Below are positions 50,150-63,053 of a DNA stretch of 64,000 nt, piece by piece. The notes under the pieces were generated by a model. That model saw only the letters and a list, made by a program, of their open reading frames with translations. It was not told the origin of the DNA and ran no database searches. The stretch comes from an uncultured Dehalococcoidia bacterium. GTDB taxonomy: Bacteria > Chloroflexota > Dehalococcoidia > Lucifugimonadales > Lucifugimonadaceae. The stretch lies in assembly GCA_958295935.1 (NCBI GenBank), contig OY282385.1:806001-870000 (forward strand). Direction: 5' to 3'. The position numbers and the translations under genes were made by a program. Positions within the stretch are counted from its first letter, which is position 1; every line of letters begins with the position of its first letter.

Positions 50150-51970
50150 GTGAATCTTAGAAATGGGGCCGCGGGCCGGGGCGTTTTGGGGTTCATTGCG
50201 CTGATTTTGATTGCAGCGTGCGGGTGTGTTTCGGGAGCGCGGCCGACGGAGACGCCTACTCCCCTACCGATCCCGACGGCATCGAGGACGCAGCGCGACG
50301 TGAGCGGGTTCGGTCTGTTCTCGCTCTTTGGCGGCGGAGCGGCGGCGTATGGCGGCGACTTCACGGTTCCCAGTGTGGAGGACGTTGTGGAGAAGGGTTT
50401 GTATGGGATGGGGACAACGCCGGTGCACATTGCGTTTCGCGGTGCCGCGGCCAGTGGATCGGTTCGTTGCGGCTGGCGGGGAGTGGCGAGAACGCCGGAG
50501 CAGCGAGAGGGGGCGATACGCTTCTGGCTGGGCATAGGCGAGGACGAAGATTTGCCTTCAGCGGGAGAAGTGGAGGAAGAGTTCTTATATCACATCAGCG
50601 GGATGGTCCCCATGTACCGCGACTCTCAGGGGGCAAGGTTCCTGCCGCTTGCGCGCGGGGGTCTTTCGACCGAGTACGTGTATCTGGCCTGCTATGCGGA
50701 TTACGCGGTGAGCGAGTATCTGCTAGGCGCGGGTCCGGCCAGTCCGAACAGGGTCATCGTCGCCTACGATGGGTTGGGTGAGGAGCGGTCTTACGATCTG
50801 TTCAGGCGTTCTCAAGCGGCGGGGGAGTTCGGCGACGATCCCATCCTGGTGACGGAGGCTGAGCATACGGAGTGGCTGGACGCGTGGGCGGAGTACGTGG
50901 AAGTGTCCTTGAGGGAGATGGTAGAGGGGCGGGAGGGCGTGGTGTTCCTGGCGCCGATGGGTGCGTACGGCACGATTGCCATCGAGGCGTGGCGGGCGGT
51001 GGCGCAGTGGGACATGCAGACGGGGGATGACGGGGTGGTGAACGCGGTGCGCTTTGGGGCGGATACGAGCGACCCGGAATGGATGCAGACGCTGGCGAAT
51101 CTGAAGAGCCGGGTTGCCGCGGCTGTGGCCTCTCCCTCGTCTACCCAGGCTGAGGGCGGCGCGTCCGGGCAGCCGGATGAGGCGTCGCTTACTCCTACTC
51201 CGGCGCCAACGAGAATAGCGAGTGTGGGCGGTTTGAGCGGTTACTACCGCAGCATCGGCGCTTATGGTTTCATAGGTCCGTATTCGACCGGGTCGGATAC
51301 GCCGGAGCCGAACTTCACGCCGGCTCAGCCTCCGCCGGTGTTTGCGCCCAAGCCTGCGAGCCTCAGCGCGACGGCGTCGGGCGAGGATACGGCGAACCTG
51401 ACGTGGGGCGCGGTGAGCGCGGCGTCGGGGTATCGAGTGCAGCATCGCATCAGAGCCGGCGAGGATGAGGGTTGGAGTTCGTCGCCGGAGGGCCCGGATC
51501 AGGGCTGGAGGGCGGTGGCGGGAAGCGTGACGGGGACGAGCCATTCGGTGACCGGTCTATGGTGCGGCAAGACCCATGAGTTCAGGGTGGGGGCCTATGG
51601 CGACGGCGCAACGTATAACGAGAGGGCGGGCTTGTGGTCGCCCACGGCGTCTGCTGCGATGGGTGCGTGCACGGCTCATCCTCCTCGGTTCCGCGCCCCG
51701 TCCTATTCATTCGAGGTGAATGCGGTTGCGTCGACCGGGGCGGCGGCGGGTGCGGTTTCGGCGTATGACGTGAACGGCGATACGGTGACCTACTCGATTG
51801 CGAGCGGCAACGGAGCGGGGAAGTTTTCGATAGAGAGCGGCACGGGGGCCGTCACGGTGGCCGGGTCGCTGAGCGCTGCGGCGGGCACGACTTATACGCT
51901 GACGGTGAACGCGGCCGACGGGGTGAGCGGTTCGACCGGCGTGACGGTGAAGGTGTCGGTGACGGAGTGA
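50150..51970 (+). CDS. Modular surface lipoprotein A (novel N-domain, FN3-like, cadherin-like)
   Basis: A 606-residue secreted lipoprotein. Signal peptide with lipobox IAAC (Cys24). A Pro/Thr linker precedes a domain I do not recognise (about 55-330; DVSGFGLFSLFGGG ... YHISGM ... YLACYADYAVSEYLLGAGP ... FLAPMGAYGTIAIEAW). A Thr/Pro-rich linker follows, then an FN3-like domain (about 400-510; LSATASGEDTANLTWGAVSA, with a WCGKTHEFRV strand) and a cadherin-like repeat (about 515-605; SFEVNAVASTGAAAGAVSAY ... SGNGAGKFSIESGTGAVTVAG). Probably a cell-surface adhesion or binding protein. The longer paralogue A' is at 57386. GTG start. Confidence 0.75.
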   Translation: MNLRNGAAGRGVLGFIALILIAACGCVSGARPTETPTPLPIPTASRTQRDVSGFGLFSLFGGGAAAYGGDFTVPSVEDVVEKGLYGMGTTPVHIAFRGAAASGSVRCGWRGVARTPEQREGAIRFWLGIGEDEDLPSAGEVEEEFLYHISGMVPMYRDSQGARFLPLARGGLSTEYVYLACYADYAVSEYLLGAGPASPNRVIVAYDGLGEERSYDLFRRSQAAGEFGDDPILVTEAEHTEWLDAWAEYVEVSLREMVEGREGVVFLAPMGAYGTIAIEAWRAVAQWDMQTGDDGVVNAVRFGADTSDPEWMQTLANLKSRVAAAVASPSSTQAEGGASGQPDEASLTPTPAPTRIASVGGLSGYYRSIGAYGFIGPYSTGSDTPEPNFTPAQPPPVFAPKPASLSATASGEDTANLTWGAVSAASGYRVQHRIRAGEDEGWSSSPEGPDQGWRAVAGSVTGTSHSVTGLWCGKTHEFRVGAYGDGATYNERAGLWSPTASAAMGACTAHPPRFRAPSYSFEVNAVASTGAAAGAVSAYDVNGDTVTYSIASGNGAGKFSIESGTGAVTVAGSLSAAAGTTYTLTVNAADGVSGSTGVTVKVSVTE

Positions 51971-51990
51971 TTTGATGGGGGACGGTTGAA
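51968..51990 (+). repeat. Direct repeat, right copy, flanking the lipoprotein A cassette
   Basis: Matches 49889-49911 in 22 of 23 positions. It begins with the TGA stop of lipoprotein A and joins directly onto the remnant of a PD40 gene. Confidence 0.75.
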
Positions 51991-52098
51991 CTTTGCACCG
52001 TGGCCCGGGATGGCTTGGACGTGCGGGTTCTGGTGATGCAGGATAGAGAAGGAAATCTGACCCCCGGACACGGGCGGTCGCGAGGATTGACGCCGTGA
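51991..52098 (+). pseudogene. 3' remnant of a PD40 propeller gene
   Basis: In frame this reads TVARDGLDVRVLVMQDREGN then LTPGHGRSRGLTP and stop, nearly identical to the ends of the propeller genes at 56220 and 61795 (TVARDGSDGRVLVMQ...). Everything 5' of it is missing; it begins at the direct repeat after lipoprotein A. The remnant is still followed by the usual mini-gene, so a whole propeller gene once stood here or only its end was carried along. Confidence 0.8.
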
Positions 52099-52202
52099 TG
52101 AATTACGATTGGCAGATACCGCAGCTCGGCCCTGATGGTGAGCCTGACTGTTCACCGCATCCGTTCGACGTCATGGCGATACAGGCTTTGTACCGGGACT
52201 GA
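52098..52202 (+). CDS. Conserved mini-gene, copy 1 (34 residues)
   Basis: MNYDWQIPQLGPDGE, then PDCSPHPFDVMAIQALYRD. ATG overlaps the stop of the PD40 remnant (TGATG). Four more versions follow later propeller genes with the same core but different ends; insertions and deletions among them keep frame, which argues for translation. No signal peptide. The ending D-x-MAIQALY recalls the last helix of matrixin-type metalloproteases (D-x-x-AIQxLYG); that resemblance is a guess. Confidence 0.55.
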   Translation: MNYDWQIPQLGPDGEPDCSPHPFDVMAIQALYRD

Positions 52203-52221
52203 AGCTATGCAGGGCGTTAGC

Positions 52222-53319
52222 ATGAGGAAATTGCAAACAATTGTCGCTGCTGTAGTTCTTACCGCGCTTGCATTTGGCTTGGTCGCATCGGGAGGGTTAT
52301 GTGGAGGCGACATGGTGGCTGAATGGCAATTCCGCCTCAAGTTTCCTGGCACGGCGCTACAGTGGTCTCCGGACGGCGCTCGCATAATATTCCTCCGATC
52401 TGATGGAAACAGGGTAATCCAAAAGAGTAAAAAAATATACATCATCAATTCCAGCGGATCCGGCTTGCGATTTGTTGACTATGCTGCCGGGCCGCCCGAC
52501 ATCTCGCCGGACGGCTCTCAGATAGTATACGCGGACATCGACGAAAGGATATTAACGTCCGCACTCGACGGATCCAGCCGCCGCAGACTTGCCAATCATG
52601 GCCGCGGCCCCGTGTGGTCGCCTGATGGATCCCGAATCGTATTTGTAGGTAATGGCCTGCTTAAAACAATGGCGGCCGACGGCTCCGACGTGCGTACTTT
52701 GTGGAAAGAGGACCCTCTATGGAAAACTGACTTGTCAACAGGCGGCGGTGTGTTCCCGCCGGCATGGTCGCCTGACGGACGACGCATAGCTTTCCTGGGG
52801 GGAGTCACTACCGTATATGGAAAGGGAGTTATATACACTATTGGAACAGACGGCTCCGATCCGGTGAGGCTCGAATACACAGCAAGCCCGCCGGCATGGT
52901 CTCCGGACGGCAACAGCATAGCGTTTGCAAAGAAACGAGGCGACAGGATTGTATTTTATACAATGCGCCCTGACGGCTCCGATCTAAGAGAAGTATTCTC
53001 CCATACCGCTTCCGATACCAGCGTTTTGTGGGTCCCAGCTCCCTCCTGGTCGCCCGACGGCTCCGAGTTGCTGCTTTGGGGCGAAAATAGGGTGAACGTA
53101 GTCCGGGTAGCTGACGGCGCCAGCCGGGTATTGCCCGGGCAAGGCAACTTCGCTGCATGGTCTCCGGACGGCTCCAGAATTGCGATTTACTCTCTCCCGT
53201 ATGAATTCGACGGTCCGCCGCTTTCCACCGTGGCCCGGGGTAGCTCGTTCGCTCAGGTTCTGCTCATGCAGGGTTGGGAGAACCTGCCGGCTGCGAAGGA
53301 AGGGCTGGAAGGGGATTGA
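52222..53319 (+). CDS. PD40/TolB-type secreted beta-propeller, array copy 1
   Basis: Signal peptide (MRKLQTIVAAVVLTALAFGL) then a beta-propeller whose blades are marked by LQWSPDGAR, DISPDGSQ, PVWSPDGSR, PAWSPDGRR, PAWSPDGNS, PSWSPDGSE and AAWSPDGSR. Small Cys- and Gly-rich stretch after the signal. ATG 52222 gives a standard signal and has AGGGCG ahead; ATG 52207 adds five residues. Its blade around YTMRPDGSDLREVFSH recurs in array copy 3. Peptide or sugar binding is the usual role of such propellers; here unknown. Confidence 0.75.
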   Translation: MRKLQTIVAAVVLTALAFGLVASGGLCGGDMVAEWQFRLKFPGTALQWSPDGARIIFLRSDGNRVIQKSKKIYIINSSGSGLRFVDYAAGPPDISPDGSQIVYADIDERILTSALDGSSRRRLANHGRGPVWSPDGSRIVFVGNGLLKTMAADGSDVRTLWKEDPLWKTDLSTGGGVFPPAWSPDGRRIAFLGGVTTVYGKGVIYTIGTDGSDPVRLEYTASPPAWSPDGNSIAFAKKRGDRIVFYTMRPDGSDLREVFSHTASDTSVLWVPAPSWSPDGSELLLWGENRVNVVRVADGASRVLPGQGNFAAWSPDGSRIAIYSLPYEFDGPPLSTVARGSSFAQVLLMQGWENLPAAKEGLEGD

Positions 53320-53323
53320 CGCA

Positions 53324-53437
53324 GTGAATTACGACTGGCGGATACCGCAGCTCGGCCCTGAGGGTGAGCCTGACTGTTCGCCGCATCCCTTTGACATCAT
53401 GGCGATACAGGCTTTGTACGCTTCGGAGAATCGGTGA
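53324..53437 (+). CDS. Conserved mini-gene, copy 2 (37 residues)
   Basis: Starts with GTG four bases after the propeller stop: MNYDWRIPQLGPEGE, then PDCSPHPFDIMAIQALY and ASENR. Its stop lies seven bases ahead of the next propeller ATG, and its last codons are followed by the GAGGGCGG ribosome-binding site of that gene. Confidence 0.6.
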   Translation: MNYDWRIPQLGPEGEPDCSPHPFDIMAIQALYASENR

Positions 53438-53444
53438 GGGCGGC

Positions 53445-54746
53445 ATGACTCGTTTCGGTAGAATCATCACAATTCTTGGGCTTGCGCTGGCGGCGATGCC
53501 TCTAACTGGGGCGGCGGAGTGCGGGTGTGGGCCGAATGGTGTCCCCGAGGGCAATTCCATACATGCGCCTCAATGGTCCCCGGACGGCACGAGCATCGTG
53601 TTCAGCCAATCCTACTACAAAATATATAAGGTGGACTCCGATGGAACGAATCTTAGACGTATTCATGGCAAGAACAACGGTGAAGAGTATGCTAGCTCGC
53701 CGAGCATATCCCCAGACGGCTCTCGAATAGCATATGAGCATTATGAATGTACCTGGCCCACAGTGGCGGTGTCCAAGCTTGACGGGTCGCGACGACACAG
53801 GCTGACCGATGGAGAGGACTATATCTTAGGCGACCACCCCACATGGTCGCCCGATGGATCCAGAATCGCGTCCGTGTCTGGATCCCGCTTGTACACAGTG
53901 GATCCAGACGGCTCCGATCTGCATGTCATATGGAAATCTTTTGAGACACACAGTGGAGGTACAGAAGACTACAGCTGGAAGAGTTCTAAAACAAAGAGTC
54001 TGGGTACAACAGTCTACAGGAATGTGGCTGAGCGGCCTCCAGCCTGGTCGCCTGACGGCCGGCGTATAGCGTTCGTTGTACAGGAAGAAGCACATGAAGA
54101 AGTATATAGGTATAATGAAGCATATGTAGCTAAGAGACATAAAGAATGGCAATGGCGAAATTACGTCTTACATGTTGTCGCCTCGGATGGCTCAGCTGAG
54201 ATAAGGTTTGGGCACACCGGGAAGATAATGAGCCCGCCCGCATGGTCGCCCGACGGCCGCAGCATAGCTTTTGCCCAGGAAGATGACGACGGAGTAGCAG
54301 GTATCTATACAATAAATCCGGACGGCTCAAATCTCCAAAGAGTATTCCGATTCCCCTTAGGATACGATTCCCTTGCTTGGGCATACGATTCCCCTGATTG
54401 GGCTGATTCTTCTCTTTCCTGGTCGCCGGACGGCTCCGAGTTGCTGCTAAGTTCCGGGCTGCCTGGGAGTCCCAGAACTGAAGTCATCAATTTGGCTGAG
54501 TCAAAACTGCACAGACTGTCTCTGCCGCGCGTTGGTGCCGCTTCGTGGTCGCCGGACGGCTCCAGAATTGCGATCAACGCCCCTCCCCAAGTCTTCCTCC
54601 GTGGCGTCACAAGAGTCAACGACTCTACCTCTGTGGTTTTCACCGTGGCCCGAGATGGCTCGGACGTTCGAGTTCTGGCCACGGGGGACAGAGATAAAAA
54701 TTTCTCAGCTGCGCACGGCGAGCCGCTGAGAATTTCCAGGAATTGA
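53445..54746 (+). CDS. PD40/TolB-type secreted beta-propeller, array copy 2
   Basis: Signal peptide MTRFGRIITILGLALAAMP, then a Cys-rich start (AECGCG), then a propeller with PQWSPDGTS, SISPDGSR, PTWSPDGSR, PAWSPDGRR, PAWSPDGRS, LSWSPDGSE and ASWSPDGSR. A lysine/glutamate/tyrosine-rich insertion (EEAHEEVYRYNEAYVAKRHK) sits in the middle. The N-terminal two thirds match copy 3 almost exactly; the last third (NLQRVFRF ... KLHRLSLP) instead resembles copies 4 and 5. ATG 53445 follows GAGGGCGG. The gene is markedly more AT-rich than housekeeping genes here. Confidence 0.75.
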   Translation: MTRFGRIITILGLALAAMPLTGAAECGCGPNGVPEGNSIHAPQWSPDGTSIVFSQSYYKIYKVDSDGTNLRRIHGKNNGEEYASSPSISPDGSRIAYEHYECTWPTVAVSKLDGSRRHRLTDGEDYILGDHPTWSPDGSRIASVSGSRLYTVDPDGSDLHVIWKSFETHSGGTEDYSWKSSKTKSLGTTVYRNVAERPPAWSPDGRRIAFVVQEEAHEEVYRYNEAYVAKRHKEWQWRNYVLHVVASDGSAEIRFGHTGKIMSPPAWSPDGRSIAFAQEDDDGVAGIYTINPDGSNLQRVFRFPLGYDSLAWAYDSPDWADSSLSWSPDGSELLLSSGLPGSPRTEVINLAESKLHRLSLPRVGAASWSPDGSRIAINAPPQVFLRGVTRVNDSTSVVFTVARDGSDVRVLATGDRDKNFSAAHGEPLRISRN

Positions 54747-54753
54747 AGCAGTG

Positions 54754-54861
54754 ATGAATTACGATGAGGACGTGCCGCAGATCGGCGATGAGCCTGACTG
54801 TTCGCCGCATCCTTTTGACATCATGGCGATACAGGCTTTGTACGCTTCGGAGAATCGGTGA
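54754..54861 (+). CDS. Conserved mini-gene, copy 3 (35 residues)
   Basis: ATG seven bases after the propeller stop: MNYDEDVPQIGDE, then PDCSPHPFDIMAIQALY and ASENR. Compared with copy 2 it lacks two codons in the GPEGE segment, an in-frame difference. It is followed by the same GAGGGCGGC-ATG start of the next propeller. Confidence 0.6.
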   Translation: MNYDEDVPQIGDEPDCSPHPFDIMAIQALYASENR

Positions 54862-54868
54862 GGGCGGC

Positions 54869-56107
54869 ATGACTCGTTTCGGTAGAATCATCACAATTCT
54901 TGGGCTGGCGCTGGCGACGATGCCTCTGATTGCTGCGGTGGAGTGCGGATGCGGACCCGCTGGTAACAACCCCGGGGGCAATTCCATACATGCGCCTCAA
55001 TGGTCCCCGGACGGCACGAGCATCGTGTTCAGCCAATCCCACTACAGAATATATAAGGTGGACTCCGATGGATCGAATCTTAGACTTATTCATGGCAAGA
55101 ACAACGATGAGTATGTCAACTTGCCGAGCATATCACCGGACGGCTCTCGACTAGCATATGTGCAGTATGAATGTGGCCTGCCTGCAGTGGCGGTGTCTAA
55201 GCTTGATGGGTCGCGACGACACAGGCTGACCGATGGAGAGGACTATATCCTAGGCCACCACCCCACATGGTCGCCCGATGGATCCAGAATCGCGTTCACT
55301 GGATCCGGTCTGTACACAGTGGATCCAGACGGCGCCGATCTGCATGCCGTATGGAAATCTTTTGAGACACACAGTGGGGGTACAGAAGACTACAGCTGGA
55401 AAAGTTCTAAAACAAAGAGTCTGGGTACAACAGTCTACAGGAATGTGGCTGAGCGGCCTCCAGCCTGGTCGCCTGACGGCAGGCGTATAGCGTTCGTTGT
55501 ACAGGAAGAAGCACATGAAGAAGTATATAGGTATAATGAAGCATATGTAGCTAAGAGACATAAAGAATGGCAATGGCGAAATTACGTCTTACATGTTGTC
55601 GCCTCGGATGGCTCAGCTGAAATAAGATTTGGGCACACTAGAGAGGTAATAAGCTCGCCGGCATGGTCGCCCGACGGCCGAAAAATAGCGTTCGCTCAGG
55701 AAGATGACGACGGAGTGGTAGGTATCTATACAATGAACCCGGACGGCTCCGATCTAAGAGAAGTATTCTCGCATGCTTGGTCCGATACTCCCGTCTGGTC
55801 GCCCGACGGCTCCGAGTTGCTGGTTTGGGGGCGAAATGGGATGAACGTCATCAGGGTAGCTGACGGCGCTCGCCGGGTATTGCATGGGATGGACGTCCTC
55901 ATGTTCTCTAAAGGTGTCCTCCAGCCATTGCCTTGGCTAGGCGATATCGCCTCATGGTCTCCGGATGGCTCCAGAATTGCGATTATTTCCAGCAAATATG
56001 ATCACAACGTGGACACGCCGAAGCTTTTCACCGTGGCCCGGGATGGCTCGGACGGGCGGGCTCTGGTGATGCAGGATAGAGAAGGAAATCTGAGGGCGGC
56101 GCAGTGA
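54869..56107 (+). CDS. PD40/TolB-type secreted beta-propeller, array copy 3
   Basis: N-terminal two thirds nearly identical to copy 2 (same signal peptide, same DEDYILG and EEAHEEVYRYNEAYVAKRH segments). After IYTMNPDGS it switches to the type of copy 1 (DLREVFSH ... LLVWGRNGMNVIRVADGARRVL), and its last 40 residues (PKLFTVARDGSDGRALVMQD) follow copies 4 and 5. A clear mosaic. ATG 54869 with GAGGGCGG. Ends in TGATG overlap with the next mini-gene. Confidence 0.75.
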   Translation: MTRFGRIITILGLALATMPLIAAVECGCGPAGNNPGGNSIHAPQWSPDGTSIVFSQSHYRIYKVDSDGSNLRLIHGKNNDEYVNLPSISPDGSRLAYVQYECGLPAVAVSKLDGSRRHRLTDGEDYILGHHPTWSPDGSRIAFTGSGLYTVDPDGADLHAVWKSFETHSGGTEDYSWKSSKTKSLGTTVYRNVAERPPAWSPDGRRIAFVVQEEAHEEVYRYNEAYVAKRHKEWQWRNYVLHVVASDGSAEIRFGHTREVISSPAWSPDGRKIAFAQEDDDGVVGIYTMNPDGSDLREVFSHAWSDTPVWSPDGSELLVWGRNGMNVIRVADGARRVLHGMDVLMFSKGVLQPLPWLGDIASWSPDGSRIAIISSKYDHNVDTPKLFTVARDGSDGRALVMQDREGNLRAAQ

Positions 56108-56223
56108 TGAATTACGACGGGCGGATACCGCAGATCAGCGTTGAGCGTGAGCCTGACTGTTCGCCGCATCCCTTTGACATAATGGCTATCAACGCACTGT
56201 ACCAAACGGTGACGACGCCATGA
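56107..56223 (+). CDS. Conserved mini-gene, copy 4 (38 residues)
   Basis: MNYDGRIPQISVERE, then PDCSPHPFDIMAINALY and QTVTTP. ATG overlaps the stop of propeller copy 3, and its own TGA overlaps the ATG of propeller copy 4 (ATGA). This tight coupling on both sides supports translation of the mini-gene. Confidence 0.6.
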   Translation: MNYDGRIPQISVEREPDCSPHPFDIMAINALYQTVTTP

Positions 56224-57389
56224 GGAAGTCGAATCGAATCACAAATGCCATGGTGGCTGCGTCGATCACATTTTTCCTGCTCACGGCGGGTTGCAATCTG
56301 ATATACAATCCGCCGAGCTTCGAAGTATATTTCCCGCCCGAGATACTTCATCGTCCGCCTCAATGGTCTCCAACTGGCGCCTTGGTATTCACTCATGAAA
56401 ACAAAATATACATTGCAGAATCCGATGGATCGAGTTTTCAACTCATCCATGGCAGCGATGATAAAAACTCCAACTCGCCGGGTATATCGAACAATGATAA
56501 CTACGCCGATTCTCCGAGCATATCGCCTGACGGCTCTCAAATAGTATATGTTGATTACTCCTACCGGGGAGGAGGATCTGATATCTCTCGATCCATGCTT
56601 GACGGCTCTCGCCGCGGCAGGCTCGATCCAGCTTGTCATGTGTGTATGAAACCGATATGGTCGCCCGATGGAACCAGAATCGCATTTATGTCTGGACGCA
56701 GCCTGCTCACAGTGGCCTCAGATGGCTCCGATTCTCGCCTCATTTTTAGGGGTTTTTGGGATTCGCCATCTTTTGACGAAATCTCCTACCTATCATTTGC
56801 GTGGTCTCCCGACGGACATCGTATAGCGTTCGTAGTGCTAGAGGTAAGAAAATCTAGTATGCGAAGAGTGCTGTACAACGCCGCCGCGGATGGCTCATAT
56901 GAGATAAGTTTTGGGCACACCGGGGAGGTAATAAGCTCGCCGGCATGGTCGCCCGACGGCCGCAGCATAGCTTTCGCCCAGGAAGACGACGACGGAGTAC
57001 CAGATATCTATACAATAAGCCCGGACGGCTCGAATCTGCAAAGAGTATTCCGATTCTCCGTAGGAGACTACCCTTCTGCCTCGCTTGATTATTCTCTTTC
57101 CTGGTCTCCGGACGGCTCCGAGTTGCTCTTGAGTTCTGGGAGTTCCAGACCGGCAGTCATCAATTTGGGTGAGTCAAAACTGCGCAGACTGCCGGGGCCT
57201 GTCGGTTCCGCCTCGTGGTCTCCGGACGGCTCCAGAATCGCGATTAGTTCCCGCGCCCATGATCGCAGCGTGGCCCCGAAGCTTTTCACCGTGGCCCGGG
57301 ATGGCTCGGACGGGCGGGTTCTGGTGATGCAGGATGGAGAAGGAAATCTGACCCCCGGACACGGGCGGTCGCGAGGATTGACGCAGTGA
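56220..57389 (+). CDS. PD40/TolB-type beta-propeller lipoprotein, array copy 4
   Basis: Lipoprotein signal with TAGC lipobox (Cys near residue 25), then a Tyr/Pro-rich start (YNPPSFEVYFPPEI) and propeller blades PQWSPTGA, SISPDGSQ, PIWSPDGTR, FAWSPDGHR, PAWSPDGRS, LSWSPDGSE, ASWSPDGSR. Very similar to copy 5 at 61795. Its stop overlaps the GTG of lipoprotein A'. No mini-gene follows; instead the start of A' has taken its place. Confidence 0.78.
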   Translation: MRKSNRITNAMVAASITFFLLTAGCNLIYNPPSFEVYFPPEILHRPPQWSPTGALVFTHENKIYIAESDGSSFQLIHGSDDKNSNSPGISNNDNYADSPSISPDGSQIVYVDYSYRGGGSDISRSMLDGSRRGRLDPACHVCMKPIWSPDGTRIAFMSGRSLLTVASDGSDSRLIFRGFWDSPSFDEISYLSFAWSPDGHRIAFVVLEVRKSSMRRVLYNAAADGSYEISFGHTGEVISSPAWSPDGRSIAFAQEDDDGVPDIYTISPDGSNLQRVFRFSVGDYPSASLDYSLSWSPDGSELLLSSGSSRPAVINLGESKLRRLPGPVGSASWSPDGSRIAISSRAHDRSVAPKLFTVARDGSDGRVLVMQDGEGNLTPGHGRSRGLTQ

Positions 57390-60300
57390 ATTACAGAAAG
57401 AGCACAGCGGGCCGGGGCGTTTTGGGGTTCATTGCGCTGATTTTGATTGCAGCGTGCGGGTGTGTTTCGGGATCTGGTCCGGCGGGGACGCCTTTGGTCT
57501 CGGCGGCGCCTGTGCCGTCGTCTGCAGGCGCGCAGCCAGATTTCGTAGACGCGGGCGCTACGCCGACCGGTCTGCCTGTGCTTGTTGAGACGCCTACTCC
57601 TGAGGCGCCTACTCCCCTACCGTCGCCGGGGGCGACGCCGACTGCGGGCTCCCAGTTTCCCACCATTGCCGTAGCCGCGCCTACTCCCCCATCGGTCCCG
57701 ACGGCATCGAGGACGCAGCGCGACGTGAGCGGGTTCGGTCTGTTCTCGCTCTTTGGCGGCGGAGCGGCGGCGTATGGCGGCGACTTCACCGTTCCCAGTG
57801 TGGAGGACGTTGTGGAGAAGGGTTTGTATGGGATGGGGACAACGCCGGTGCACATTGCGTTTCGCGGTACCGCGGCCAGCGGGTCGGTTCGTTGCGGCTG
57901 GCGGGGAGTGGCGAGAACGCCGGAGCAGCGAGAGGGGGAGATACGCTTCTGGCTGGGCATAGGCGAGGACGAAGATTTGCCTTCAGCGGGAGAAGTGGAG
58001 GAAGAGTTCTTATATCACATCAGCGGGATGACCCCCATTTACCGCGACGCGCAGAAGGCAAGGTTCCTGCCTCTTGCGCGCGGGGGTCTTTCGCCCGAGT
58101 ACGTGTATCTGGCCTGCTATGCGGATTACGCGGTGAGCGAGTATCTGCTCGGCGCGGGTCCGGCCAGTCCGAACAGGGTCATCGTCGCCTACGATGGGTT
58201 GGGTGAGGAGCGGTCTTACGATCTGTTCAGGCGTTCTCAAGCGGCGGGGGAGTTCGGCGACGATTCCATCCTGCTGGTGACGGAGGCTGAGCATACGGAG
58301 TGGCTGGACGTGTGGGCGGAGTACGTGGAAGTGTCCTTGAGGGAGATGGTGGAGGGGCGGGAGGGCGTGGTGTTCCTGGCGCCGATGGGTGCGTACGGTA
58401 CGATTGCGATCGAGGCGTGGCAGGCGGTGGCGCAGTGGGACGTGCAGACGGGGGATGACAGTGTGGTGAATGCGGTGCGCTTTGGGGCGGGTACGGACGA
58501 CCCGGAATGGACGCAGACGTTGGCGAATCTGAAGAGCCGGGTTGCGGCGGCCGTGGCTTCTCCCACGCCTTCCCCGGCTGGGGGCGGCGCGTCCGGGCAG
58601 TCGGATGAGGCGTCGCCTACTCCTACTCCGGCGCCAGCGCCAACGAGAATAGCGAGTGTGGGCGGTCTGAGCGGTTACTACCGCAGCATCGGCGCTTACG
58701 GTTTCATAGGTCCTTATTCGACCGGGTCGGATACGTCGGCGTCCGGAGCGTCCGGTTCTTCTGCGACGTCCACGGAGCCATCCACTCCGGAGCCGAACTT
58801 CACGCCGGCTCAGCCTCCGCCGGTGTTTGCGCCCAAGCCTGCGAGCCTCAGCGCGACGGCGTCGGGCGAGGATACGGCGAACCTGGCGTGGGGCGCGGTG
58901 AGCGCGGCGTCGGGGTATCGAGTGCAGCATCGCATCAGAGCCGGTGAGGATGAGGGTTGGAGTTCGTCGCCGGAGGGCCCGGATCAGGGCTGGAGCGCGG
59001 CCGCGGGCAGCGTGACGGGTACGAGCCATTCGGTGACCGGTCTATGGTGCGGCAAGACGCATGAGTTCAGGGTGGCGGCCTATGGCGACGGCGCAACGTA
59101 TAACGAGAGGGCGGGCTTGTGGTCGGCCACGGCGTCTTCCACGATGAGTGCGTGTACGGCTCATGCTCCTCGGTTCCGCGCCGGGTCGTATTCATTCGAG
59201 GTGAATGCGGTTGCGCCGACCGGGGCGGCGGCGGGTGCGGTTTCGGCGTATGACGTGAACGGCGACACGGTGACCTACTCGATTGCGAGCGGCAACGGAG
59301 CGGGGAAGTTTTCGATAGAGAGCGACACGGGGGCCGTCACGGTGGCCGGGTCGCTGAGCGCTGCGGCGGGGACGACTTACACGCTGACGGTGAACGCGGC
59401 CGACGGGGTGAGCGGCTCGACCGGCGTGACGGTGAAGGTGTTGGTAAGGGAGCCTACTTGCAATAGCGGCGTTGCGGTGGAGAAGCCTCGCTCGAACTTC
59501 TGGCTGGTTAGCGATTGCATGATATTGCTGGCTGCGAAGGACACTCTGCGGGGTGCGGCGGAGCTGAACTGGAGCGCCTATACGCCGATTGCGAGTTGGG
59601 AGGGCGTGGGGGTGAGCGGCACGCCGAAACGGGTGACGCGGATTGACCTGAGCAGAGCCGGGCTCTCGCCCGCCAGGAATCCGATGGCCGGCAGCATCCC
59701 GCCGGAGTTTGGCAGTTTGGGCAGGCTGACGAGGCTGGACCTGACGAGGAATTCGTTGACGGGGGGCATACCTTCGGAGTTGGGCAACCTGCGCAACCTG
59801 GCTTATCTCAGCGTTAGGAGCAACAGCTTGAGCGGGGGCGTCCCGCCGGAGCTGGGGATGCTCGTGAATCTGACCGGGTTGGTCCTGGACAGGAACTCGT
59901 TGACCGGGGAGATACCGCCTGAGTTGGGCAGTTTGACGAAGTTGACGGAGTTGCGGGTGAGCAACAACAGTCTCACGGGCTGCGCGCCTGCGGGGTGGAG
60001 GGACGTCTCCACGAAGGAGCTGCAGGCGGGGATGGGTTACTGCGGACCGGCGCCGGGGAGTCCTACGATCATTTTGGGTTCATCGATCAGGGTTGTTCCG
60101 GACGCGGTGTCCGGGGCAACGAGCTATGAAGCCGAGCTGTCGGGGGGCGGGTCGAGTCGCAGGACCACGTGCACGGACACCGAGGGATGCACGTTCAGCG
60201 GGGAGACGGGGCGGAGCTACACGGCGCGTGTGCGGCACACTGATTCGGGCGGTCTCAGCGCCTGGAGCAGCCGTAGGGCGTTCACGTATCACGGCGGCAT

Positions 60301-61609
60301 GGCTTCGGACAGCGTGTCGTTCACGCGGGTCGCGGGCAGCGTGACGGTGAGCTGGACGCCGGCTCCGGGTGACGTGGTTTCGCAGAAAGCGGTTCTCACC
60401 TATACCGCTTCGGGCTGCGCCTTTGCGGATATATCTCGGGATGGGCCGAGCCGCAGCTTTGCGGACGGCACGACGGGTTCGCACACGTTCAACGCGGACT
60501 TGTCGAGTTACACCTGCGTCTTCCCGCAGGTGATCAACTACTATTCATCCGATTTGGGCGTGTATGCGTACGATTACGGCCCGGTGATTTGGTTAACGTC
60601 CGGCATGGGGGGCCGGAGCGGGCGGATTGGGTTTGGGTTCGATTTTGAGTATAGCTACCCAATCGACGAGGACGCGGCGACGAGCACGGTGCTGGTTATA
60701 ATGGAGGCGTCGGGGCCGGTGGTCGGGCCAGCGGAATCGTACTCGATCATCTCGGGAAACCGGGAAGGAAAGTTCGAGGTGGGCAGGTATACGGGCGAGG
60801 TGAGGGTTGCCGGGCGGCTGAACTACGATATAACGCGGTCCTACACGCTGTCGATCGAGGCGGGCGACGGACTGGGCGGGACGGCGACGTCGACCGTTTA
60901 CGTGCTGGTGAGAGACGTGTACGAGAGCATCGAGGGCCTGGAGCCGGCGGCCTCGAGCACCGTTCCCGTGATCCCGAAAGAGGAGCCCGAGGTGGAGGCG
61001 AGCGGCGGGCTGGCGGCCACGTCGACCGATCCCGTGATCCCGGAAGACGAGGAGGAGGAGGAGAGCGACGGGCAGGGGGAGACGGGTACGTCGACCGATC
61101 CCGTGATCCCGGAAGACGAGGAGGAGGAGAGCGACGGGCAGGGGGAGACGGGCACGTCCACCGATCCCGTGATCCCGGAAGACGAGGAGGAGGAGAGCGA
61201 CGGGCAGGGGGAGACGGGCACGTCCACCGATCCCGTGATCCCGGAAGACGAGGAGGAGGAGAGCGACGGGCAGGGGGAGACGGGCACGTCCACCGATCCG
61301 GTGATGCCGGAAGACGAGGAGGAGGAGAGCGACGGGCAGGGGGAGACGGGTACGTCCACCGTTTACATGCTGCCGGGAGACGTGTACGAGGGGAGCGGCG
61401 GGCCGGGTGGTAGGGGCGCCTGGGTGGCGCTGACGCGGGCCGCGCCGGAGGGCTGGGTCGTCACGGAGTACGAGCGATACCGCAGAAAGAGCGGGGGTCT
61501 TGTGCGGTTGGTCACGTTGGAGGTCGTCGATGGTTCGGCTACTGAGTACGTCGGCGCGATCAGCATCGAGCCAACCAGCGGGTTCAGCCGGTCAGCGGCT
61601 ACGGTGTGA
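57386..61609 (+). CDS. Large modular surface lipoprotein A' (FN3, cadherin, LRR, acidic repeats; 1407 residues)
   Basis: Paralogue of lipoprotein A extended at the C-terminus. Lipobox IAAC (Cys24), Pro/Ala/Thr linker (30-115), the same unknown domain (about 118-400), FN3-like (about 484-590) and cadherin-like (596-688) domains. New parts: Cys-containing segment (690-760), plant-type LRRs (about 768-868; SGGVPPELGMLVNLTGL, LTGEIPPELGSLTKLTEL), two more FN3-like regions (about 890-1065), a second cadherin-like domain (about 1078-1175), five 22-residue acidic repeats (1212-1322) and a tail. The acidic repeats could bind calcium or act as a spacer. Start codons GTGAATTAC are those of the mini-gene, so its 5' end looks like a recombination product. 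Confidence 0.75.
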   Translation: MNYRKSTAGRGVLGFIALILIAACGCVSGSGPAGTPLVSAAPVPSSAGAQPDFVDAGATPTGLPVLVETPTPEAPTPLPSPGATPTAGSQFPTIAVAAPTPPSVPTASRTQRDVSGFGLFSLFGGGAAAYGGDFTVPSVEDVVEKGLYGMGTTPVHIAFRGTAASGSVRCGWRGVARTPEQREGEIRFWLGIGEDEDLPSAGEVEEEFLYHISGMTPIYRDAQKARFLPLARGGLSPEYVYLACYADYAVSEYLLGAGPASPNRVIVAYDGLGEERSYDLFRRSQAAGEFGDDSILLVTEAEHTEWLDVWAEYVEVSLREMVEGREGVVFLAPMGAYGTIAIEAWQAVAQWDVQTGDDSVVNAVRFGAGTDDPEWTQTLANLKSRVAAAVASPTPSPAGGGASGQSDEASPTPTPAPAPTRIASVGGLSGYYRSIGAYGFIGPYSTGSDTSASGASGSSATSTEPSTPEPNFTPAQPPPVFAPKPASLSATASGEDTANLAWGAVSAASGYRVQHRIRAGEDEGWSSSPEGPDQGWSAAAGSVTGTSHSVTGLWCGKTHEFRVAAYGDGATYNERAGLWSATASSTMSACTAHAPRFRAGSYSFEVNAVAPTGAAAGAVSAYDVNGDTVTYSIASGNGAGKFSIESDTGAVTVAGSLSAAAGTTYTLTVNAADGVSGSTGVTVKVLVREPTCNSGVAVEKPRSNFWLVSDCMILLAAKDTLRGAAELNWSAYTPIASWEGVGVSGTPKRVTRIDLSRAGLSPARNPMAGSIPPEFGSLGRLTRLDLTRNSLTGGIPSELGNLRNLAYLSVRSNSLSGGVPPELGMLVNLTGLVLDRNSLTGEIPPELGSLTKLTELRVSNNSLTGCAPAGWRDVSTKELQAGMGYCGPAPGSPTIILGSSIRVVPDAVSGATSYEAELSGGGSSRRTTCTDTEGCTFSGETGRSYTARVRHTDSGGLSAWSSRRAFTYHGGMASDSVSFTRVAGSVTVSWTPAPGDVVSQKAVLTYTASGCAFADISRDGPSRSFADGTTGSHTFNADLSSYTCVFPQVINYYSSDLGVYAYDYGPVIWLTSGMGGRSGRIGFGFDFEYSYPIDEDAATSTVLVIMEASGPVVGPAESYSIISGNREGKFEVGRYTGEVRVAGRLNYDITRSYTLSIEAGDGLGGTATSTVYVLVRDVYESIEGLEPAASSTVPVIPKEEPEVEASGGLAATSTDPVIPEDEEEEESDGQGETGTSTDPVIPEDEEEESDGQGETGTSTDPVIPEDEEEESDGQGETGTSTDPVIPEDEEEESDGQGETGTSTDPVMPEDEEEESDGQGETGTSTVYMLPGDVYEGSGGPGGRGAWVALTRAAPEGWVVTEYERYRRKSGGLVRLVTLEVVDGSATEYVGAISIEPTSGFSRSAATV
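61019..61351 (+). repeat. Five tandem 66-bp coding repeats (first 69 bp)
   Basis: Each codes TSTDPVIPEDEEEESDGQ plus GETG; the first has one extra Glu and the last has Met for Ile. Nearly identical DNA, so recently expanded, and all units in frame with lipoprotein A'. Confidence 0.93.
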
Positions 61610-61757: not shown

Positions 61758-61794
61758 GTAGCGGGCAAGTGAGAGCTGGGACGGAGCCATGAGC

Positions 61795-62976
61795 ATGAGG
61801 AAGTCGGATCGAATCATAAATGTCTTGGTGGCTGCGTCGATCACATTTTTGCTGCTCATGGCGGGTTGCAATCTGATATACAATCCGCCGAGCTTCGAAG
61901 TATATTTCCCGCCCGAGATACTTCATCGTCCGCCTCAATGGTCTCCAACTGGCGACTTGGTATTCACTCATGAAAACAAAATATACATTGCAGAATCCGA
62001 TGGATCGAGTTTTCAACTCATCCATGGCAGCGATGATAAAAACTCCAACTCGCCGAGTATATCGAACAATGATAAATACGTCGACTCGCCGAGCATATCG
62101 CCTGACGGCTCTCAAATAGCATATGTTGATTACTCCTACCGGGGAGGAGGATCTGATATCTCTCGATCCATGCTTGACGGCTCTCGCCGCCGCAGACTCA
62201 CCGATGGTACAGCGTATCACGGGCCTATGAAAAAACCTATATGGTCGCCCGACGGAGGCAGAATCGCATTTGGTTCTGGACGCAGCCTGCTCACAGTGGC
62301 CTCAGATGGCTCCGATTCTCGCCTCATTTTTAGGGGTTTTTGGGATTCGTCAGATTTTGTCGAACTCTCTGACCGGTCATTTGCGTGGTCCCCTGACGGA
62401 CATCGCATAGCGTTTATTGTAAAGGAAGTAGAAAAACATCATGCTCGAAGAGTACTGTATAACGCCGCCTATGATGGCTCAGATCAGATAAGGTTTGGGC
62501 ACACCGCGGAGATATTAACCTCGCCGGCATGGTCGCCCGACGGCCGCAGCATAGCTTTCGTACAGAAAGATGACGAGGGGGTAGGAGGTATTTATATAAT
62601 GAACCCGGACGGCTCAAATCTACAAAGAATATTCCGATTCCCTGCGGGATACGACTCCTATGCTCGGACTGATTCTTCTCTTTCCTGGTCTCCGGACGGT
62701 TCCGAGTTGCTCTTAAGTTCTGCGTGGTCCAGGCCGGCAGTCATCAATTTGGGTGAGGCAAAACTGCGCAGACTGCCGGGGCCAGTCGGTTCCGCCTCGT
62801 GGTCTCCGGACGGTTCCAGAATCGCGATTAGTTCCCGCGCCCATGATCACAACGAGGCCACGCCGAAGCTTTTCACCGTGGCCCGGGATGGTTCGGACGG
62901 GAGGATTCTGGTGATGCAGGATAGAGAAGGAAATCTGACCCCCGGACACGGGCGGTCGCGAGGATTGACGCAGTGA
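61795..62976 (+). CDS. PD40/TolB-type beta-propeller lipoprotein, array copy 5
   Basis: Near-twin of copy 4: MRKSDRIINVLVAASITFLL, lipobox MAGC, YNPPSFEVYFPPEI, and blades PQWSPTGD, SISPDGSQ, PIWSPDGGR, FAWSPDGHR, PAWSPDGRS, LSWSPDGSE, ASWSPDGSR. Differences cluster in the third and fifth blades. ATG 61795 matches the start of copy 4 and has GGAG eight bases ahead; ATG 61789 adds two residues. The gene lies between two long direct repeats, so it may be an inserted or duplicated cassette. Confidence 0.78.
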   Translation: MRKSDRIINVLVAASITFLLLMAGCNLIYNPPSFEVYFPPEILHRPPQWSPTGDLVFTHENKIYIAESDGSSFQLIHGSDDKNSNSPSISNNDKYVDSPSISPDGSQIAYVDYSYRGGGSDISRSMLDGSRRRRLTDGTAYHGPMKKPIWSPDGGRIAFGSGRSLLTVASDGSDSRLIFRGFWDSSDFVELSDRSFAWSPDGHRIAFIVKEVEKHHARRVLYNAAYDGSDQIRFGHTAEILTSPAWSPDGRSIAFVQKDDEGVGGIYIMNPDGSNLQRIFRFPAGYDSYARTDSSLSWSPDGSELLLSSAWSRPAVINLGEAKLRRLPGPVGSASWSPDGSRIAISSRAHDHNEATPKLFTVARDGSDGRILVMQDREGNLTPGHGRSRGLTQ

Positions 62977-63053
62977 TGAATTACGATAGGGATGTGCCGC
63001 AGATCGGTGATGAGCCAATCACCGGGTTCAGGCGGTCAACGGCTACGGCGTGA
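62976..63053 (+). pseudogene. Chimeric mini-gene, copy 5 (25 codons)
   Basis: Starts as the other mini-genes (MNYDRDVPQIGDEP) and overlaps the propeller stop, then switches at a shared GAGCC into the end of lipoprotein A' (ITGFRRSTATA). The DCSPHPFD motif is lost. It records a recombination joint. Confidence 0.7.

Follow-up and report, generated by a model that had tools for sequence, protein, structure and literature searches.

Partial gene duplications leave 3' gene remnants, in which pieces of variable length from the 3' end of an upstream gene are carried on copies of the gene downstream. Leader peptides, or translationally coupled upstream open reading frames (ORFs), are short and overlap or abut the start of the next gene. 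Features of both are seen in the window analysed here, a stretch of 64,000 nucleotides (nt) from the genome of an uncultured Dehalococcoidia bacterium (contig OY282385.1, positions 806,001 to 870,000), where four intact mini-ORFs of 34–38 codons alternate with PD40 beta-propeller genes. The mini-ORFs (stubs) correspond to the Met-turn and C-terminal helix of matrixin/metzincin metalloproteases (PF00413, Peptidase M10). An earlier note on this DNA had argued for a real, translated small protein, and had allowed that the copies may instead be leftover C-terminal pieces of a matrixin-type protease since lost. The latter is strongly supported, as full-length relatives share the Met-turn and tail and have the same propeller family downstream. 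Sequence comparison thus gives strong support to the mini-genes being 3' stubs of a secreted matrixin-like metalloprotease gene, amplified with the propellers. A passive origin, in which the stubs would at most serve in coupling, has by our estimate a probability of about 0.7; a true peptide function is unlikely.

The four intact stubs lie on the forward (+) strand, as do the other array genes described below, and at the positions previously reported: stub 1 at 52098..52202 (34 amino acids (aa), MNYDWQIPQLGPDGEPDCSPHPFDVMAIQALYRD, alternative GTG start at 52095), stub 2 at 53324..53437 (37 aa, MNYDWRIPQLGPEGEPDCSPHPFDIMAIQALYASENR), stub 3 at 54754..54861 (35 aa, MNYDEDVPQIGDEPDCSPHPFDIMAIQALYASENR, alternative GTG start at 54751), and stub 4 at 56107..56223 (38 aa, MNYDGRIPQISVEREPDCSPHPFDIMAINALYQTVTTP, alternative GTG start at 56104). 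Their lengths differ by multiples of three, as had been noted. Of the MNYD starts described ahead of the conserved core, those of copies 1, 3, and 4 begin with ATG; copy 2 starts with GTG, not ATG (GTGAATTAC, where the remaining copies read GTGATGAATTAC). Each intact stub directly precedes a PD40 propeller gene and overlaps or abuts both neighbours. The starts overlap the stop codon with which the preceding propeller gene or remnant ends, or come shortly after it, and a Shine-Dalgarno-like AGGA, GAGG, or AAGG is located 8–11 nt before each of them (AGGA for stub 1). The stop of copy 4 overlaps the next propeller gene (ATGA) and those of copies 1–3 fall 4–7 nt before the next start. A fifth, chimeric copy, additional to those of the earlier note, follows propeller 5 (62976..63053): MNYDRDVPQIGDEP is continued by ITGFRRSTATA and a stop, and the core was lost through a junction, at a shared GAGCCA, with the 3' end of a large-gene copy. 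The pattern DC[ST]PHPFD has four matches in the window against 0.02 expected from shuffled sequence, and this excess, together with the shared junctions, rules out chance ORFs. A Pfam search with the mini-proteins gave zero matches.

In a search of 100 related genomes, the same tail sequence was found to end long ORFs. In these full-length relatives, HExxHxxG lies 38–79 residues upstream of the tail and is followed by HPTIPDSVMNYD and then EPDCSPHPFDIMAIYALYQ. Since the long ORFs carry HExxHxxG and then the same tail, the MNYD of the mini-genes is the Met-turn (SVMNYD), and EPDCSPHPFD[IV]MAI.ALY the last helix, of a matrixin-like protease. In each stub, a variable loop joins the Met-turn (VMNYD) to the last helix (EPDCSPHPFDIMAI.ALY). 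Full proteases with this tail at their end are present in genomes G092, G082, G099 (several), G065, G141, G185, G183, G009, and G100, as well as in G467, which belongs to another order of the class. The full-length relatives read HEAGHALGLSN, with variants; HExxHxxG is invariant in alignment A2, where, as in most relatives, an [AS]VMNYD Met-turn lies downstream of the zinc helix. Additionally, a profile of the protease domain matched MMP-16 in the PDB (E=7e-4). The third zinc ligand is not at the standard spacing, with N at that position in alignment A2, and a conserved His (AHPTIPD) after an insertion may replace it.

No HExxH was found within the 34–38 aa ORFs or their upstream open frames, and because they lack the zinc site, the stubs cannot be proteases. 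No full-length version of the stub tail was found in the window's genome; the single intact metzincin found there (L115) is diverged and precedes a lipoprotein of a different type. A split protease complemented by the stub is unlikely, as L115, the sole metzincin found in this genome, has its own tail.

Most tails, whether full or orphan, have a PD40 propeller as their downstream neighbour, starting from −1 (ATGA) to approximately +35 nt. Even the G467 protein from another order is a full-length member with an ATGA overlap, followed by a propeller-like lipoprotein. Given this constant neighbour, the ancestral order was probably protease then propeller, with stop and start overlapping or abutting. 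In approximately 85,000 bacterial and archaeal species genomes, a degenerate core pattern matched Chloroflexota metagenome-assembled genomes only, nearly all of them labelled Dehalococcoidia; several appear to be sponge-derived, judging from record or isolate names. The pattern had no match among viral contigs, and a phage origin was rejected on this ground.

The tail need not belong to a longer protein. Outside the window's genome, orphan tails that have no protease domain are found in G092, G082, G099, G105, G124, G186, G185, and G070, and the lengths of stub on the propeller copies of relatives are arbitrary (5, 10, 23, or 46 codons). For instance, near-identical propeller copies carry approximately 16 nt (L036 vs L039), 29 nt (L161 vs L101), or 68 nt (L043 vs L041) of the protease end, and approximately 140 nt (46 codons) of it lies behind tRNA genes in L034 and L038. 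An array in G092 has the layout of the window, with a propeller, a Met-turn-started tail ORF extended by an immunoglobulin-like stretch, and a second propeller, overlapping on both sides. In the homologous G082 array, a deletion removes the tail core and breaks the frame, yet the following propeller is intact, with an open frame of 421 codons, and the core is therefore dispensable there. The frameshifted copies that the earlier note had named as evidence against a small protein thus exist in relatives, where other copies have only 16–29 nt of the stub left. Similarly, the conservation in homologous loci expected of a small protein is not observed, as the core is deleted or truncated in L160, L036, and L161. 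Therefore, from the variable stub lengths, the core loss and frame break in G082, and the reshuffling of tails, hitch-hiking remnants, possibly still serving as coupling ORFs, are more likely than a dedicated small protein.

Some orphan tails have distinctive neighbours. The tail-plus-propeller units of L034:3905-5988 and L038:3546-5750, from two genomes of different families, are 93% identical; the unit immediately follows tRNA-Ala in one genome and tRNA-Met in the second, has a serine recombinase remnant at its far end, and looks like an integrated mobile unit. A 107-nt orphan-tail stretch is 100% identical in L040:3660-5001 and L037:3777-3883, again from two genomes of different families, and the L040 tail is approximately 50 nt from an intact-looking serine recombinase gene (Resolvase plus Recombinase domains). 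L041:2010-5285 contains three tandem lipoprotein gene copies (MQFMSRPKRSTTEIAG...), and copy ends there bear the short in-frame protease-tail remnant MAMYALY[KQ]SR, the same kind of scar beside a non-propeller gene family. In G105 (L087-L089), different tail-propeller cassettes lie behind nearly identical leader DNA with lipoprotein signal peptides, which suggests that cassettes were exchanged behind one leader.

The stubs probably arose in a few steps. The stop of the ancestral protease gene would have overlapped or abutted the start of a PD40 propeller (lipo)protein gene, an arrangement seen in relatives. Copying or moving of the propeller would have carried along a variable length of the protease 3' end, as in the near-identical copies above, presumably because the protease-end DNA holds the propeller's translation start. 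In the window's genome, one truncation would have joined the stub, beginning at the Met-turn ATG or a GTG next to it, to the end of a different propeller gene. All window stubs have the left junction GCAGTG(ATG)AATTAC in common, so this truncation preceded amplification. The stub-plus-propeller unit would then have been amplified in tandem while recombining inside the stub, to judge from the shared junctions and the mosaic copies (the first half is common to copies 1 and 2, whose ends differ, and the end is common to copies 2 and 3, whose first halves differ). Translation of the stubs, as short coupled ORFs between the propellers, probably continues, consistent with the Shine-Dalgarno-like sites and overlaps. 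The amino-acid stability of the core could reflect either a residual peptide role or divergence inherited from the whole-protease stage.

Several observations weigh against a passive remnant of a matrixin-like protease. The match of the full-length relatives to the Pfam matrixin family PF00413 scores 17.7 bits, under the gathering cut-off of 24, and the AlphaFold model of the protease, obtained from 3 sequences, has a mean predicted local distance difference test score (pLDDT) of 37, which is too low for a structure search and does not confirm the fold. As a result of the sub-cut-off score, the unusual third-ligand spacing, and the poor structure model, the family is named matrixin-like and membership is not claimed. 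Additionally, left breakpoints that arose independently fall immediately before EPDCS in several cases, as if the core had been kept on purpose, although the search for tails favoured core-bearing copies. The 18 codons of the core hold 9 synonymous and 3 nonsynonymous changes among the four window copies (P = 8e-5 to 9e-4, for a neutral synonymous chance of 0.21–0.28), and pairwise omega in the core is at most 0.07 (about 0.03–0.07), in comparison to 0.38–0.65 in the propellers. If all of this divergence followed the truncation, then a purely passive remnant should not show such a bias, which suggests a translated, constrained peptide. The first 13 codons of the stub look unconstrained.

Some of the core divergence may nevertheless have been brought in from tails whose evolution took place within whole proteases, since the window copies are mosaic and five of the nine synonymous changes are located in the 3' half of copy 4. 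When copy 4 is excluded, a codon-table count gives 4 synonymous changes and 1 nonsynonymous change (P about 0.01). The signal of purifying selection in the window core is confounded by recombination, and it is missing from an orphan pair in G092 and G082, whose tails differ by 0 synonymous and 2 nonsynonymous changes.

The likelihoods of the alternatives overlap, as coupling and shuffling are both compatible with a protease-remnant origin. The best of them is that stub translation alone matters, with terminating ribosomes loading the propeller start and the peptide itself being irrelevant, which has a little less than an even chance of being correct. As expected of a coupled leader, every intact stub has a stop overlapping or near the next start, plus its own ribosome site; GTGA or ATGA overlaps and short gaps occur on both sides, and neither a terminator nor a convincing promoter was found between the stub-propeller units. 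Propeller 1 has no Shine-Dalgarno match before it, in agreement with coupling, whereas propellers 2 and 3 each come with a GGTGA/GAGG site and propeller 5 has no stub. Coupling also leaves the synonymous bias of the core unexplained.

A more tentative alternative is that the conserved tail DNA is a recombination hinge, that is, a homologous stretch for swapping upstream modules and propellers, possibly aided by mobile elements. Window copies 1 and 2 agree in the N-terminal half and differ after ALY, with the reverse for copies 2 and 3, and in G105 two distinct tail-propeller cassettes adjoin the leader at an identical position. The units behind tRNA-Ala and tRNA-Met near a serine recombinase remnant, and the L040 tail beside its recombinase gene, would also fit. 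However, no recombinase was noticed beside the window array, and the synonymous sites of the tail differ widely between genomes, which rules out the tail as a site-specific DNA target.

It is unlikely that the stub is an exapted small protein with a function of its own, probably linked to the adjacent propeller (e.g. as a docking or assembly helix), whose core was selected after loss of the protease. The low omega and the 9:3 ratio of the core are in its favour, as are at least six different left junctions with the core whole in each, and the tails of G105 and G070, which are re-fused to a lipoprotein signal peptide and a proline-rich linker with the propeller still directly next. In contrast, the core is deleted and the frame broken in the G082 array, where the propeller is open, and it is absent from the L036 and L161 copies; one G099 orphan has lost the core cysteine (C to R); the G092/G082 orphan pair has only nonsynonymous changes; and the window stubs lack a signal peptide, whereas the propellers are exported. 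The two orphan loci of G105 have leaders that are approximately 93% identical over 234 nt, but there is wide divergence between their tails and scarcely any alignment downstream, so the tails diverged before joining the leader. These tails were at first taken as supporting selection after truncation, a reading that was withdrawn because leader and tail have different histories. The earlier case for a translated small protein has partial support from the Shine-Dalgarno-like sites, the in-frame overlaps, and the strong synonymous excess in the 18-codon core, and the core loss in relatives counts against it. The protease-fragment proposal is the better supported of the two, and both are partly right.

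More doubtful still is a broader version, in which the protease C-terminal helix has repeatedly been freed as a separate peptide working with the neighbouring propeller lipoprotein, re-exported on a lipoprotein anchor in G105 and G070 and tandemly amplified as a leaderless mini-gene in the window. Frameshift fusion to the upstream propeller was rejected, with no slippery heptamer seen by eye at the junction, and so was the idea that an alternative frame through the stub extends the propeller at its N-terminus; this frame is open in copies 1–3 but closed in copy 4 and varies in its amino acids.

A propeller 3' remnant, not recorded earlier, lies to the left of stub 1 (51988..52098); it ends with VARDGLDVRVLVMQDREGNLTPGHGRSRGLTP and a stop, belongs to repeat family D7, and is 86% identical over its last 35 aa to propellers of the same genome. 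PD40 propeller gene 1 (52207..53319; Pfam PD40 E=1e-25) is followed by genes 2 (53445..54746) and 3 (54869..56107), both covered by the own-genome propeller search, and by the lipoprotein gene 4 (56220..57389; lipobox LTAGC; Pfam PD40 E=1.5e-26). The propeller lipoprotein gene 5 (61789..62976) has no preceding stub. Between genes 4 and 5 is a large fn3/cadherin/LRR lipoprotein gene (57386..61609), whose first codons (GTGAATTAC, MNY) lie on the left junction of the stub, a reuse of the MNY start that is likewise new relative to the earlier note. This gene and a large lipoprotein gene at 50150-51970 (fn3, cadherin, LRR) are a related pair that flanks the propeller array, and the longer of the two proteins has near-identical repeats of STDPVIPEDEEEESDGQGETGT close to its C-terminus. 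Propellers 2 and 3 share a near-identical inserted block (53936-54180 and 55357-55600; SFETHSGGTEDYSWKSSKTKSLGTTVYRN... and VYRYNEAYVAKRHKEWQWRNYVLH) that is missing from the other propellers and represents a recent gene conversion or insertion.

Taken singly, the components belong to known kinds, as regards the parent protease and the propeller family as well as gene remnants. As far as the literature searched shows, what is new is the serial orphaning of protease tails beside propellers in many Dehalococcoidia, along with their tandem amplification into clean mini-genes. The publications found dealt with sponge Chloroflexi and SAR202 genomes in general, and none was found on the protease-tail/propeller arrangement. 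The protease-propeller gene pair named here is recurrent across many Dehalococcoidia genomes. The mini-genes provide a concrete, many-genome example of small-ORF birth, in which the 3' end of a gene is left on a translationally overlapping neighbour and the pair is then amplified. There is also a need for caution, as a mini-gene can owe the conservation of its amino acids to a longer parent protein. Should the core be truly selected, then the mini-genes would clearly exemplify a small protein derived from an enzyme tail, and if the helix has repeatedly been freed, then a family of small proteins would have been born in this way.

In comparison to matrixins and other metzincins, the full-length relatives likewise carry HExxHxxG and an [AS]VMNYD Met-turn, but they have an insertion before the Met-turn, a nonstandard third-ligand spacing, and a sub-cut-off Pfam score, and the stubs are without the zinc site and most of the domain. 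The downstream genes resemble TolB-like PD40 propellers (TIGR02800, PF07676) in their repeated W-SPDG blades, but at 106 bits they fall far short of the TolB equivalog cut-off of 343 bits. In contrast to leader peptides, the stubs have a core conserved at the amino-acid level and no attenuator or stall motif. Finally, they differ from ordinary 3' gene remnants in that the same kind of remnant recurs in many genomes, and in that the window stubs are tandemly amplified with intact start, stop, and Shine-Dalgarno-like site and with their core amino acids kept.

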